A stretch of 64,000 bases of DNA, from assembly GCF_035582795.1 (NCBI RefSeq), contig NC_134390.1:1124560-1188559 (forward strand). The letters run 5' to 3'. Of the stretch, positions 2,170 to 63,258 are shown piece by piece. The stretch comes from Mycteria americana (lineage: Eukaryota > Chordata > Aves > Ciconiiformes > Ciconiidae). Every line of letters starts with the position of its first letter. Within the stretch, counting starts at the first letter, position 1. A program made the translations under genes and the position numbers. The notes below the pieces were generated by a model that saw nothing but the letters and a program-made list of their open reading frames with translations, searched no databases and was not told the DNA's origin.

Positions 2170-2569
2170 ATGAATTCCTATTTTACAAACCCATCTTTAT
2201 CCTGCCATCTAACCAGTGGCCAAGAGGTGCTTCCCAACGTAGCCCTCAATTCAACTGCCTATGACCCTGTCAGGCATTTTTCTACTTATGGAGCAGCCGT
2301 GGCTCAAAACCGGATTTATTCTTCTCCTTTTTATTCACCGCAAGATAATGTTGTGTTTAGCTCCAGCCGAGGACCTTATGACTATGGATCTAATGCTTTT
2401 TACCAAGAAAAAGACATGCTTTCTAGCTGCAGGCAAAATTCTATGGGACATAATACACAGACATCAATCGCACAGGATTTTACCAGTGACCAAAACAGGA
2501 ACACTTCGCAAGAACAAAAAACTAGCATTCAAATATACCCATGGATGCAGCGTATGAACTCCCACAGTG
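2170..2569 (+). CDS. HOXC6: HOXC6 coding exon 1 (N-terminus and YPWM motif)
   Basis: This exon encodes residues 1-133 plus one base of codon 134 of Hox-C6, a nuclear DNA-binding transcription factor that specifies thoracic/limb-level axial identity. The start gives [10 protein letters not shown], the family N-terminus. The Pbx-binding hexapeptide IYPWM is at residues 122-126, just before the splice donor (G|GTAAGT, 2570). The 728-bp intron is phase 1, as usual for Hox genes. With exon 2 the protein is 237 residues, against 235 in human. Met83 (ATG at 2416) matches the start of the shorter human isoform made from the alternative promoter, so a 155-residue form lacking the N-terminus is possible here. 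Residue-level similarity to mammalian HOXC6 is very high, which makes the assignment near certain. Confidence 0.97.
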
Positions 2570-2652
2570 GTAAGTTTTACAGCTCGGAGATATAAATTAA
2601 ATAAACTGAACCATCTTTACGACCTTCTCCCTAGCAGAACAGGCTGAGCGAC

Positions 2653-2672
2653 TTTTTATGGCCCCATAAAAA
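2653..2672. promoter_or_regulatory. perfect palindrome of TTTATGG sites in HOXC6 intron
   Basis: TTTTTATGG at 2653-2661 and its exact reverse complement at 2664-2672 are separated by CC. TTTATGG is the core preferred by Hox9/Hox10-class proteins with Pbx. The surrounding intron (2581-2870) is AT-rich and complex, unlike the GC-rich 3' half of the intron. A palindrome of two Hox half-sites suggests an auto- or cross-regulatory site. Function is inferred. Confidence 0.45.
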
Positions 2673-3263
2673 CAATAATATAGCTCCTTCACAGTTGCAG
2701 CTACAGGCCTTTTATTTGTTAAGTTGTTGCAAGCAAATATGGCTTGTTATGCTCTTTCTAATTAAAAGACTTCGAGAGTGTAAAATATCTATAATAAAGT
2801 GCAGCGAGCTCTGCTCGGGAGTTAAGCACAAAATATTACCGGGGTAAAAATAAGTTTTAATGACGGGTGCGGGAAGTGCGGCGGTGGCGGGTTCCCCGCA
2901 CCAAGAAGGGCCGGGGGAAGCTCCCATTCCCCCCCCCCCGCTCCCCCAAATCCTCCAATTGGCAGAAATAATGTGGGAAAAAGAAGGAGGGGGGGGGGAG
3001 CAGCATCCCGGGAGAAAATGACCCGGGAGAAAACGCTGCGCGCACAGGGTCGATTTGATCCAAAAATAGAGATATTTAGGGTTTTTTTTTTTTCCGGGGG
3101 GGGGTGGGGGTGCTGGGGAGGGGGCAGGCGGCCGCGCTGCCGCCGGGGGTGGGGGGGGGGAGGAGGAGCGGGGCGGGCGCGGGGTTGCGCGGGGGCGGAG
3201 GGGTTGCGCGGGTGCGGGTCTTCTTTCCCCCCCCCTCCCCGCGTCCGCGTTCTACCGGGCTGA

Positions 3264-3611
<348 letters not shown>

Positions 3612-6865: not shown

Positions 6866-6897
<32 letters not shown>

Positions 6898-7340
6898 AAA
6901 AAAAAAGGGGGGGGGAAGAAGGAAAAAAGAGGGGAGGGAAAGAGGGGGGGGGAAAGAAGAAAAAAAGAGGAAAAAAGGGGGAAAAGAAGAAAGAGGGGGA
7001 AGAAAGGGGAAAAAGAAGAAAAAAAGAGGAAAAAAGAGGGGGAAAAGAGAGGGAAAAAAGAAGAAAAAGAGGGGAAAAAGAAGACATAAAGAGGGGGAGA
7101 AAAGAAGAAAAAAGAGGGGAGAAAAGAAGAAAAAAGAGGGGAAAAAAGAAGAAAGAAGGGGAAAAAAGAAGAAAAAAGAGGGGAAAAAAGAAGAAAAAAA
7201 AGAGGGGAAAAAGAAGAAAAAAGAGGGGAAAAAAGAAGAAAAAAGAGGGGAAAAGAGAAGAAAAAAGAGGGGAAAAAAGAAGAAAAAAGAGGGGAAAAAA
7301 GAAGAAAAAAAGAGGGGAAAAAAGAAGAAGGAAAAAAGAG
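6866..7340. repeat. purine minisatellite (GAAGAAAAAAGAGGGGAAAA type) before HOXC5
   Basis: About 475 bp of almost pure purine on the + strand, organised as a degenerate unit of about 20-23 bp (GAAGAAAAAAGAGGGGAAAA). It lies between the HOXC5 promoter motifs and the start codon, so it probably belongs to the 5' UTR or the immediate promoter. It is followed by a C/T tract up to the ATG. Such mirror-like purine tracts can form triplex DNA. The Lys/Arg/Gly-rich and Phe-rich open frames over it are artefacts. Confidence 0.9.
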
Positions 7341-7410
7341 GGAACCCCCCTCCCCAAATTTTCTTTTTCCCCCCCTTTTTAAATTTTTTTTTTCCCTCCC
7401 CTCCTCCGCC

Positions 7411-7867
7411 ATGAGTTCTTACGTCGCCAATTCGTTTTATAAGCAAAGTCCCCCCGTTCCTGCCTATGCCATGCAAAGTTATGGAAATTATGGAAGTGTG
7501 CCTGAGGTTCCGTCACCCAGGTACCGCTACAGTGGCTTGGATCTAAGCATCACACTCCCCTCCTCCGGGGCTGCCACCTCCCTGAGCGGCTTGGACATGT
7601 CTGCGACCCCCCGAGCTAACCCCGAGCGACCTTCCTGCACGGTCATGGGTTCTTCGGGGCATCCTTTAGCCAGAGACGAGCAAGCATCCCTAAATCCCGG
7701 GATTTACAGTCAGAAGAGTGCTAACACGACGCTGGAGGAGAGATCTAAGAGCTCGGGTGAAATCAAAGCTGAGCCCGTGCAAACAGCACAACAAGGAGGA
7801 CCACAACTGCAGCAGCAACAACCTCCACAAATTTACCCCTGGATGACCAAACTACACATGAGCCATG
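7411..7867 (+). CDS. HOXC5: HOXC5 coding exon 1 (N-terminus and YPWM motif)
   Basis: This exon encodes residues 1-152 plus one base of codon 153 of Hox-C5, a nuclear homeodomain transcription factor acting at cervical/anterior thoracic level. The start gives MSSYVANSFYKQSP, the family N-terminus (the SSYxxNSF activation motif). A Gln-rich stretch precedes the hexapeptide IYPWM at residues 141-145. The donor is G|GTAAAA at 7868, phase 1, and the intron is 806 bp. The complete protein is 223 residues, against 222 in human. The ATG directly follows a CT-rich leader. Mammals have miR-615 in this intron, but I see no such hairpin here. Confidence 0.97.
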
Positions 7868-7934
7868 GTAAAACTTTCACTTCTTGATTTTTGTTTCACA
7901 GGATTTTTTTTTTTTTTTTTTTTTTTTTTGCCTT

Positions 7935-8105
7935 GGGTTTTTATAGGCCATACGGGGCAAATAATAAAAAACCTGAGGTCGTAAATTTTACGACTAAGGC
8001 ATCAATTGCTCGTAAAACTGTCCACTAAAAGGCTTAGAGGCTATATACGCCCAAATTTATGACAGCATAATTGGATCATAGAAACAAAACGTGTATAAAA
8101 GGCAA
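7935..8105. promoter_or_regulatory. HOXC5 intronic element with three TCGTAAA sites
   Basis: This AT-rich complex stretch of the HOXC5 intron contains a perfect palindrome at 7978-7994 (GTCGTAAA, one base, TTTACGAC) and a third site CTCGTAAA at 8009-8016. CTCGTAAA/TCGTAAA is the established preference of Hox13-class and Cdx proteins. The block also holds a TTTATGA core and a TATAAAA-like run near 8094. The motif content suggests repression or activation by posterior Hox or Cdx proteins, which is an inference. Confidence 0.5.
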
Positions 8106-8346
8106 TATTCCATTTTTTTGGGAAGGGGGGGTTAAAAATAACTTGAAATACACATGTTCTTTCAGGGCGAGCTTTAAAAAAAAAAAAAAAGACACCAGAA
8201 GCGAAGGTGGAGGGAAAGCGGGGAGAGATTATTTTTTCCCCCCTCCACCTTCCCAGGGTTGAAGAGGGGGAAAAAAAAAGAGACAAGGTCCCCAAGAAAA
8301 GATATTTCCCTCCTTTGTACACTTCCTTATTGTCCGAGAGGAAACA

Positions 8347-8363
8347 GGTTCACTTCTGGCTCA
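8347..8363 (+). promoter_or_regulatory. weak DR5-like retinoid element in HOXC5 intron
   Basis: GGTTCA, five bases (CTTCT), then GGCTCA. The first half-site is a perfect RAR/RXR half-site. The second has C where G or T is expected. The spacing is right for a DR5, but it is weaker than the sites at 23383 and 46447 and could be chance. Confidence 0.25.
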
Positions 8364-8673
8364 TCTACATGCGTTTGATCCGGGCTGCAGAAAGGAAGGG
8401 GGGGACTTGGGGGGCTGGAGGTGTTGGGGGAATTAAGGATTTCAAGCTACTTCGCTCCCTGCGTGCCCCAACAGCCCCAGCAAACTTCTGTAGATTCTAG
8501 ATGTGTAACCGGGTTTTATCATTAAAAAAAAAAAAAAAAAAAGCATCATAATAAACAAAATTTCAAATCCCTCCAGAATTGCTTTGGCTTTTCATGCGGT
8601 GTCTTCCCTGGTGTTTGTTGGTTTTTTTTGTTTTGTTTTGTTTTGTTTTTTTATTTTTTTATTCCCCCCCCAG

Positions 8674-8888
8674 AAACGGATGGGAAACGCTCCCGAACCA
8701 GCTACACCCGCTACCAAACTCTGGAACTAGAGAAAGAATTTCATTTTAACAGATACCTGACCCGGCGGAGGCGCATTGAGATCGCCAACAACCTCTGCCT
8801 GAACGAGAGACAAATCAAAATCTGGTTTCAAAACCGGAGGATGAAGTGGAAGAAAGATTCCAAGTTGAAAAGCAAAGAGGCTCTTTAG
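8674..8888 (+). CDS. HOXC5: HOXC5 coding exon 2 (homeodomain)
   Basis: This exon follows a T/C-rich tract and acceptor CCCAG (8669-8673), completes Glu153 (family [11 protein letters not shown]) and ends at TAG 8886-8888. The homeodomain is residues 156-215, with Arg5, Trp48, Gln50 and Asn51 all present and helix 3 [14 protein letters not shown]. Only ten residues separate YPWM from the homeodomain, typical of paralogue group 5. The C-terminus SKLKSKEAL is the short basic tail seen in Hox-C5. The reading frame is intact. Identity to the known family is so high that no other paralogue is plausible. Confidence 0.97.
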
Positions 8889-25764: not shown

Positions 25765-25850
25765 CGTCGCTTATATGTACCCTGTAGACTCGAATTTGTG
25801 TGAGCGTCTCCCAGTCACAAATTCGTCTCTAGGGGAATATATGGGCGATG
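25765..25850 (+). ncRNA. miR-10 family microRNA precursor (HOXC copy, miR-10c position)
   Basis: This is an 86-nt hairpin. The 5' arm (25778-25800) begins TACCCTGTAGA, the complete miR-10 seed and anchor, and ends CGAATTTGTG. The 3' arm (about 25818-25839) is the usual miR-10-3p type ending CTAGGGGAATA. CGAATTTGTG pairs perfectly with CACAAATTCG around a 15-base loop, and CGTCGC pairs with GCGATG at the base with one wobble. The 5p differs from miR-10a/b only at central positions (GACTCG where they have GATCCG or GAACCG). It lies between HOXC5 and HOXC4 on the same strand, 1.9 kb upstream of the HOXC4 ATG, as miR-10a and miR-10b do next to HOXB4 and HOXD4. miR-10 represses target mRNAs, including Hox mRNAs. 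Mammalian HOXC has lost this copy. Confidence 0.93.
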
Positions 25851-27742: not shown

Positions 27743-28187
27743 ATGATCATGAGCTCTTATTTGATGGACTCTAACTACATCGATCCGAAATTTCCTCCAT
27801 GCGAGGAATATTCGCAAAATAATTACATCCCAGACCACAGTCCGGAATATTATAGCCGGACAAGGGAGTCCAGCTACCAGCACCACCATCAAGAGCTGTA
27901 CCCCGTGCCACGACCCTCCTTCCCCGACCGCCCGTTCAGCTGCGGGGGTCTCCAGGCTCCCGGCAACCCGGCCGCGCTCCAAAGGGGACACGGGCAAACT
28001 CCAGGAGGCCAACACCTCTCAGAGAAAGCACAGCAGCTCTGCGAGCAGGCTGCTCTATCCACCTCCTCCACTACTCCTTCCCCAGCCCCTCCAGCCTGCA
28101 ACCAGCCAACCCCCGACCATCCCAACAGCACAGCTTCCAAACAGCCCATAGTCTATCCCTGGATGAAAAAAATCCACGTCAGTACTG
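27743..28187 (+). CDS. HOXC4: HOXC4 coding exon 1 (N-terminus and YPWM motif)
   Basis: This exon encodes residues 1-148 plus one base of codon 149 of Hox-C4, a nuclear homeodomain transcription factor of cervical axial level. The start MIMSSYLMDSNYIDPKFPPC is the paralogue-4 N-terminus. The first of two close Met codons (27743, the second at 27749) is used in the human protein. A His run (QHHHQELYP), a Pro/Ser-rich middle and the hexapeptide with YPWM at residues 138-141 follow. The donor is G|GTATGC (28188), phase 1, and the intron is 547 bp. The total is 266 residues, against 264 in human. The middle (residues 60-125) diverges most from mammals, and both ends are nearly unchanged. Confidence 0.97.
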
Positions 28188-28319
28188 GTATGCAACTTTT
28201 ATTTTCCTCTTCTGTCTCTCCGCTCTCTTATTTTCACACCATGCTCGCTCCCTCTCGCCTCTCTCTCTCTCTCTTTTTTTTTTTTTATTTCCTTCCCTTC
28301 CATGAGAGTCTTTGGGTTA

Positions 28320-28480
28320 GCACAATTGAACTGGATTTACGACTCCGAATGGGTAATTACACCCACCATAAATTTTATAGCCGAGCTACTGTGGGCAGCC
28401 TTAGCCATGTGGCTCGTTCTGTTATGTATGTGTGAAACTCCGAAAGCTTTGTAAGGGGTGCATAAATAATTCAGTCTTTT
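28320..28480. promoter_or_regulatory. HOXC4 intronic AT-rich element
   Basis: Complex sequence inside the HOXC4 intron with GGGTAATTACACCC, CCATAAATTTTATAG and GCATAAATAATTC words: TAATTA and ATAAA-type homeodomain cores in close array. Possible autoregulatory element, by motif content only. Confidence 0.35.
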
Positions 28481-28734
28481 GAGCCAGGGAAACCCCTTCC
28501 TATTAGAATAGAAACTCTTGAGCTGCCCAAAGTTCTTTATTACCTATTTAGCCTATTACTTTTCCCCCCCCCGGCTCCTCCAGTCGCCTCTCCCGACCCT
28601 CTCTCCATCCACGCTGATTTTCCTTGTGTGTTTTTTTTTTTTGTCTTTTTTTTTTGTTGTTGTTTTTTTGTTCTCCTTTCCTTTCTTTTTTTTTTGTTTT
28701 TTGTTTTTTTGTTTTTCCTTCCCCTCCTTTCCAG

Positions 28735-29090
28735 TGAATCCCAATTACAATGGAGGCGAACCCAAGAGATCCAGGACAGCCTACACCAGGCAGCAGGTTT
28801 TGGAGCTGGAGAAGGAGTTTCACTATAACAGGTACCTGACCCGGCGGCGACGCATCGAGATCGCCCACTCGCTTTGCCTCTCCGAGCGACAGATCAAAAT
28901 CTGGTTTCAGAACAGGCGGATGAAATGGAAAAAAGACCACAGGCTGCCTAACACCAAAGTACGGGCAGCAACGGCAGCGGCTGCCAGCGCCTCCACCGCC
29001 CCCGCCGCCCCGGCGAGCACGGCCGCGGGCGAGGAGCTGCCCTCCGCCGCCGCGCAGGACCCGCGCACGGAGGATATCACCAGGTTATAA
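28735..29090 (+). CDS. HOXC4: HOXC4 coding exon 2 (homeodomain)
   Basis: This exon follows a long T-rich tract and acceptor TTCCAG (28729-28734), completes Val149 and ends at TAA 29088-29090. The homeodomain is residues 158-217 ([20 protein letters not shown] onward), with Arg5, Trp48, Gln50 and Asn51 intact. HYNRY in helix 2 and the adjoining [10 protein letters not shown] are paralogue-4 signatures. Sixteen residues separate YPWM from the homeodomain. The tail is an Ala-rich low-complexity stretch (about residues 227-256) that differs from the mammalian tail but ends in the conserved EDITRL. Its codons are GC-rich (GCC/GCG), in keeping with local composition. Confidence 0.97.
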
Positions 29091-62082: not shown

Positions 62083-62541
62083 ATCCTATAGGAATGCACC
62101 TGATAGGAACGGCTCCTATAGGAACAGATCCTATAGGAACGGATCCTGTAGGAATAGCTCCTATTGAAATGGATCCTATAGGAAGAGATCCTATAGGAAG
62201 AAATGCCCTAAGAACATATCCCATAAGAACGGATCCCAGGGAGATGCATCCTGGATCCTATAGGAGCAGATGCCACAGGAATAGATCTCATGGGAATGTG
62301 TCCTATAGGAACAGATGCTGTAGGAGTGTATCCTAGAGACAGGGATACTGTAGGGATAGGTCCTATAGGAATGGATCCTAGAGGTACAGAACCTGTAGGA
62401 ATGCGTCCTAGAGAAATGGATCCAGTAGGAATAGATCCTATAGGAACAGGTCCTATAGGAGCAGATCCTGTAGTAATGCATCCGACGGGAATGGATGCTA
62501 TAGGAGCAGATCCTATAGGACTTGACCCTATAGGAAGAGCC
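62083..62541. repeat. 15-bp minisatellite GATCCTATAGGAAYR
   Basis: About 30 degenerate tandem copies of a 15-bp unit, consensus GATCCTATAGGAACG with CTGTAGG and CTAGAGG variants. The core TCCTATAGGA is palindromic. Because 15 is a multiple of three, long open frames appear on both strands (such as I-G-T-D-P repeats on +). They are repeat translation, not genes. The array ends about 60 bp before the CR1 element. Confidence 0.95.
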
Positions 62542-62604
62542 GTTGCAGCGGGCTGTGACAGCCGCTGCGGGATCCGAGCCCTGGGATCCAAGCCCGGCAG
62601 CGGG

Positions 62605-63258
62605 CGGGCGCGATGCTGAAGCCAGGAGATGTTGGCCAAGAAAGCCAACGGCATCCTGGCTTGTATCAGCAATGGCGTGGCCAGCAGGAGCAGGGCAGCG
62701 ATCGTCCCCTGCGCTCGGCACTGGTGAGGCCGCACCTCGAACGCTGTGTTCAGTGTTGGGCCCCTCGCTCCCAGAGAGACATGGAGGGGCTGGAGCGTGT
62801 CCAGAGAAGGGCAACGGAGCTGGGGAAGGGTCTGGAGCACAAGGCTGATGGGGAGCGGCTGAGGGACCTGGGGTTGTTCAGCCTGGAGAGAAGGAGGCTG
62901 AGGGGAGACCTCATCGCTCTCCACAACTGCCTGAAAGGAGGGGGTAGAGAGGTGGGGTCGGGCTCTTCTCCCAGGTAACAAGCCATAGGACAAGATGAAA
63001 TGGCCTCAAGTTGCGCCAGGGGAGGTTTAGACTGGATTTTAGGAAATTTTACTTCACTGAAAGGTTTGTCCAGCACTGGAACAGGCTGCCCAGGGAAGGG
63101 GTTGAGTCCCCATCCCTGGAGGTATCTAAAGGACGTTTGGATGAGGTGCTCAGGGACATGGTGTAGTGGTGGGCTTGGCAGTGTTAGGTTTACGGTTGGA
63201 CTCGATGATCTTAAAGGTCTTTTCCAACCTCTACGATTCTGTGATTCTGTGATTCTGT
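62605..63258 (+). mobile_element. CR1 non-LTR retrotransposon, 5'-truncated
   Basis: The right end has the avian CR1 signature: GGTTGGACTCGATGATCTTA, then GGTCTTTTCCAACCT and three GATTCTGT 8-mers ending at 63258. The body matches the 3' part of CR1 ORF2 and the CR1 3' UTR as I know them. The left end near 62605 is approximate, as expected for target-primed integration with 5' truncation. It is the only clear interspersed transposon in the window, 33 kb beyond HOXC4. Confidence 0.93.
62640..62990 (+). pseudogene. CR1 ORF2 reverse transcriptase C-terminal remnant
   Basis: The + strand translation gives pieces of the CR1 ORF2 end: [16 protein letters not shown] in one frame, then [18 protein letters not shown] and [18 protein letters not shown] in another. 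A one-base deletion near 62702-62708 shifts the frame, and a second shift occurs near 62955. It is a dead fragment of the protein that copies CR1 RNA into DNA. Confidence 0.85.

Follow-up and report, generated by a model that had tools for sequence, protein, structure and literature searches.

Genomic context of the hairpin

The window examined in the present study, a 64-kb stretch of Mycteria americana DNA with a GC content of 51.6%, contains part of the HOXC cluster and a microRNA hairpin on the same strand. The genes and features referred to below are the following:

2170..3611, + strand, HOXC6 (ATG at 2170, homeodomain exon, stop ending at 3611; motif scan only)
7411..8888, + strand, HOXC5 (ATG at 7411, homeodomain from 8685, stop ending at 8888)
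25765..25850, + strand, miR-10c hairpin, pri/pre form with basal stem, both arms and loop (Rfam RF00104 and fold)
25778..25800, + strand, miR-10c-5p, guide arm (25778-25799 identical to gga-mir-10c-5p; seed ACCCTGT at 25779-25785)
25789..25790, + strand, mature nucleotides 12-13 (CT), an internal loop in the predicted hairpin
25801..25815, + strand, apical loop region (15 nt, flanked by the two arms of a perfect 10-bp stem)
25818..25839, + strand, miR-10c-3p, star arm (ends by analogy with miR-10a-3p)
27743..29090, + strand, HOXC4 (ATG at 27743, homeodomain from 28764, stop ending at 29090)

A motif search located three homeodomain exons, all on the forward strand (reading-frame landmarks 3318, 8685 and 28764); Pfam verified the identification for the last two, and the first rests on the motif. 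The names HOXC6 and HOXC5 were assigned from the N-termini together with cluster order. HOXC4 was confirmed by a protein search in which the N-terminus was 97% identical to hoatzin Hox-C4, and among the 120 of 169 matches listed, nine of the best ten bear bird names, the tenth being alligator. The HOXC5 stop lies 16.9 kb before the first base of the hairpin, and the HOXC4 ATG 1.9 kb beyond its last. In the same orientation as the Hox genes, the hairpin thus occupies the Hox5-Hox4 interval in which the initial annotation had placed it, the location expected of a miR-10 family gene.

In the HOXC4 N-terminus alignment, the proteins of the songbird-named Pyrgilauda, Camarhynchus and Poecile are shorter and more divergent over the segment that links the N-terminal box to YPWM. 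These three show 48-52% identity to the window (27743-28198), compared with 84-97% for hoatzin, kakapo and alligator, in which the stretch is kept; the alignment took in those six plus a shark, and gene-model errors in the songbird-named entries are possible. Upstream of HOXC5, the stretches 6866-7084 (219 nt) and 7088-7344 (257 nt) consist purely of A and G; the latter stops 66 nt short of the ATG at 7411, and the region 6866-7344 as a whole produced sub-threshold plant-miRNA matches in Rfam.

Within the HOXC5 intron (7888-8684), Rfam, which includes a mir-615 family, listed no mir-615 either at the gathering score or at E-values up to 0.5. This lack fits the description of mir-615 as mammalian in PMC9498476. 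On the distal side of the cluster, the few exact homeodomain and YPWM motifs tried were absent from both strands of 29091-64000, and no candidate HOXC3 or HOXC1 is apparent in the 35 kb downstream of HOXC4, which would set this locus apart from the lizard of PMC9498476. The initial annotation further stated that the avian HOXC cluster was long missing from assemblies owing to its GC content. PMC5470226, in which HOXC4 on chr33 is among the chicken genes recovered from RNA-Seq, lends this general support for chicken, but the window itself is only 51.6% GC.

Family assignment and predicted structure

The Rfam mir-10 model (RF00104) matches positions 25771-25845 of the forward strand with 60.9 bits (E 8.3e-13; gathering score 47.5), and mir-10 is the sole Rfam family to reach its gathering score anywhere in the window. 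As the match spans model positions 1-74 of 74, end to end, it bears out the earlier description of a miR-10-type hairpin that includes the 3' arm. The complete miR-10 5' end claimed there, TACCCTGTAGA, is present exactly at 25778-25788 of the forward strand, its sole exact copy in the window (expected mean 0.01; present in one of 100 shuffles). Adjoining the loop is the perfect 10-bp stem that had also been described, formed in the predicted fold by CGAATTTGTG at 25791-25800 and CACAAATTCG at 25816-25825. At mature nucleotides 12-13, two base pairs that the Rfam model has are unformed in this hairpin. Inspected by eye, the 30 nt downstream contain no CNNC motif. These two features count against the reading as mir-10c.

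Membership of the miR-99/100 group, rather than miR-10, was considered, given that a U after CCC, not in the RF00104 consensus, appears as an insertion in the window and that the RF00104 model also covers miR-99/100. The 5p arm nevertheless starts with UACCCUGUAGA (seed ACCCUGU), as in the miR-10 family, and not with AACCCGUAGA, the 5' end of miR-100. The seed already rules this assignment out, the mature form equals chicken miR-10c at 22 of 22 bases, and we regard a miR-99/100 identity as vanishingly improbable.

Folding of 25765-25850, which the initial annotation had suggested as a check, predicts a stable hairpin with a minimum free energy of -40.3 kcal/mol and folding z-scores of -6.59 (200 shuffles), -8.18 (40 shuffles), -7.02 (200 shuffles) and -7.28 (1000 shuffles). 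The complement also folds (z of -5.5 and -5.0 on the reverse strand) and its positions 25770-25844 score 34.0 bits against RF00104, so that a second microRNA processed from an antisense hairpin might be envisaged. This score is, however, below the gathering score of 47.5, and folding of both strands is to be expected of a good inverted repeat; we consider antisense processing very improbable.

Weight of the fold as evidence

Raw folding energy was rejected as evidence, since 274 of 6,392 windows, GC-rich ones first, folded at or below -40.3 kcal/mol. At 10-base steps on the forward strand, 6,039 of 6,391 windows were scored with 16 shuffles (352 of low complexity omitted) and 25 places were re-scored in a second stage with 200 shuffles; the hairpin ranked first among these 25 (-7.02 vs -4.87 for the second), the 10-base grid having by luck fallen exactly in register with it. 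At 30-base steps on both strands, 40 shuffles per window were applied to 4,028 of 4,262 windows (234 of low complexity omitted); nothing was found at or below -6, the best being -6.0 (rounded) at 62435, and the hairpin, with which this grid is out of register, was not listed. At 5-base steps, z reached -7.92 at 62440 and -7.22 at 62445 (300 shuffles), compared with -7.28 (1000 shuffles) for the hairpin, and the idea that the hairpin is the most unusual fold of the window was therefore dropped.

Several windows of low folding z, the one at 62440 being the best, are clustered in 62085-62605. The 62440-62445 region has no Rfam match, and because its translations are repetitive on both strands, the low-z stretch is probably a minisatellite; it is followed near 62.6-63.0 kb by a CR1-like fragment. 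The hairpin at 25765-25850 is singled out by its family match and mature sequence, not by its fold alone. Confidence in its reading as mir-10c is unaffected by the rank of its fold, since that reading rests on the family match and on the identity with chicken.

Mature arms and identity with chicken miR-10c

The ends of the 3' arm (25818-25839) are assumed from those of miR-10a-3p. If the 3' arm is as assumed, each end of the duplex would carry a 2-nt 3' overhang, given the predicted pairs T25778-A25837 and G25798-C25818. The mature form has a single copy within the 64-kb window, and a scan of viral contigs for 21 of its bases returned no stretches, as one would expect of a gene from a vertebrate.

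In a small-RNA study of chicken (PMC9876980, Table 3), gga-mir-10c-5p is printed as taccctgtagactcgaatttgt. Comparison with positions 25778-25799 gave 0 mismatches over 22 bases, GACTCG centre included, the printed column being either reads or the reference entry; of the comparison with bird miR-10 entries that the initial annotation had called for, the chicken part thus yields complete identity over these 22 mature bases. The same table prints gga-mir-10a as taccctgtagatccgaatttgt and gga-mir-10b as taccctgtagaaccgaatttgt, each with two mismatches to the window form, at nucleotides 12 and 13 only, where the window has CT, chicken miR-10a TC and chicken miR-10b AC. These are the bases by which the GACTCG centre was said to differ from miR-10a/b outside the seed, and the CU that they form in the mature RNA is the mark of mir-10c. 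Elsewhere, a duck study (PMC7460075) names cli-miR-10c-5p_R+1_1ss11AG, in the notation of that paper the pigeon entry with A to G at nucleotide 11; miR-10c reads of duck may therefore depart from the window form by this one base. Literature searches on miR-10c in Columba livia, and on mir-10, HoxC paralogs and MirGeneDB, found no papers.

Expression data for chicken show that miR-10c is already known and measured in a bird, since gga-mir-10c-5p has been named, printed with its letters and quantified. Comparing the ZS-1 line with primary fibroblasts, the log2 changes were -1.33 for miR-10c-5p, -5.93 for miR-10a and +1.43 for miR-10b (PMC9876980, Table 3), and these differing values argue that the chicken miR-10c counts are not merely miscounted miR-10a/b. 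Mean abundances of gga-miR-10c-5p in ovarian follicles were 2,348 and 3,137 TPM (PMC9003977), gga-miR-10c-3p is named in PMC8241840, and seven papers of the literature searched name gga-miR-10c, with published quantification against miRBase 22 or 22.1. The suspicion that this copy may be poorly annotated consequently does not hold for chicken. The initial annotation would have been contradicted by small-RNA reads that lacked the GACTCG centre or were wholly explained by miR-10a/b; for chicken, this is answered in its favour by the printed gga-mir-10c-5p letters and by changes in gga-mir-10c-5p unlike those of 10a and 10b.

These data also bear on whether the locus could be a decayed, unexpressed mir-10 relic, retained in HOXC only through slow local change. 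Loss of the gene would be tolerated, given the same-seed paralogues in chicken. Against this, arms, stem and seed are all intact in the window, and the 22 of 22 mature bases shared with chicken belong to a copy measured there in follicles and fibroblasts; a relic is in our judgement very improbable.

We are all but certain that 25765-25850 is the bird mir-10c gene, which represents the HOXC cluster within the miR-10 family of vertebrates. This assignment draws directly on the sequence, the predicted hairpin, the family match, the position and the 22-base chicken identity. The central claim of the initial annotation, that this bird has a miR-10 gene linked to HOXC, accordingly stands on the RF00104 match, the HOXC5-HOXC4 interval and the bases shared with chicken miR-10c.

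Comparison with mir-10 genes of other vertebrates

PMC9498476 places mir-10c in the HoxC4-HoxC5 spacer of the lizard Darevskia valentini and notes miRBase entries for green anole, alligator, king cobra and turtle. The mir-10c of squamates, alligator and turtle resembles the window locus in its HoxC4-HoxC5 position (as given for the lizard), a likeness drawn from the published description; the likeness to chicken gga-mir-10c, identical over 22 nt of the 5p form, was drawn from the mature letters. The paralogues mir-10a (HOXB) and mir-10b (HOXD) share the seed and, in chicken, 20 of 22 mature bases, differing at nucleotides 12-13; in the lizard they lie between HoxB4 and HoxB5 and between HoxD4 and HoxD8, respectively (PMC9498476). 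Searches for literature linking miR-10c with HoxC4 and HoxC5, or with turtle and lizard, returned nothing beyond PMC9498476.

In that paper, mir-10c is called absent in chicken and mammals and apparently reptile-restricted. The stated absence from mammals agrees with the initial annotation, and the stated absence from chicken is contradicted both by the chicken gga-miR-10c data and by the Mycteria americana locus. A broader evolutionary reading is that miR-10c is an old HOXC-linked paralogue kept across sauropsids including birds and lost on the mammalian line, with some targets of its own through the change at nucleotides 12-13, which extends as far as the beginning of the 3' supplementary region. 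We offer this reading tentatively and consider it unlikely in full.

Proposed function and targets

Most likely the locus works as a canonical microRNA gene: it would be transcribed within a HOXC transcript, and Drosha and Dicer cuts would release a 22-23-nt 5' arm starting at 25778. Once loaded into Argonaute, this arm may repress mRNAs with ACAGGGU sites via its seed ACCCUGU, and the repression would act in the trunk domain that HOXC regulation defines. Its targets are predicted to be largely those of miR-10a and miR-10b, which have the same seed; in zebrafish, miR-10 represses HoxB1a and HoxB3a (PMC2148072). Seed sites within the window are at chance level on the two strands together (seven found vs 6.65 expected), and one of the seven is the hairpin's own complement. 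Just one of them falls on the Hox coding strand; it is located at 3044, in the stretch that separates the coding exons of HOXC6, and no forward-strand site lies inside the coding exons of HOXC4, HOXC5 or HOXC6.

Implications

That a bird has retained a mir-10 gene in its HOXC cluster, between HOXC5 and HOXC4, counters the view in PMC9498476 of mir-10c as missing from chicken and confined to reptiles. In other respects the finding adds a known gene in one more bird, a correct but ordinary observation. Studies of bird Hox genes that test miR-10 function would have to take account of no fewer than three genes, mir-10a, mir-10b and mir-10c.
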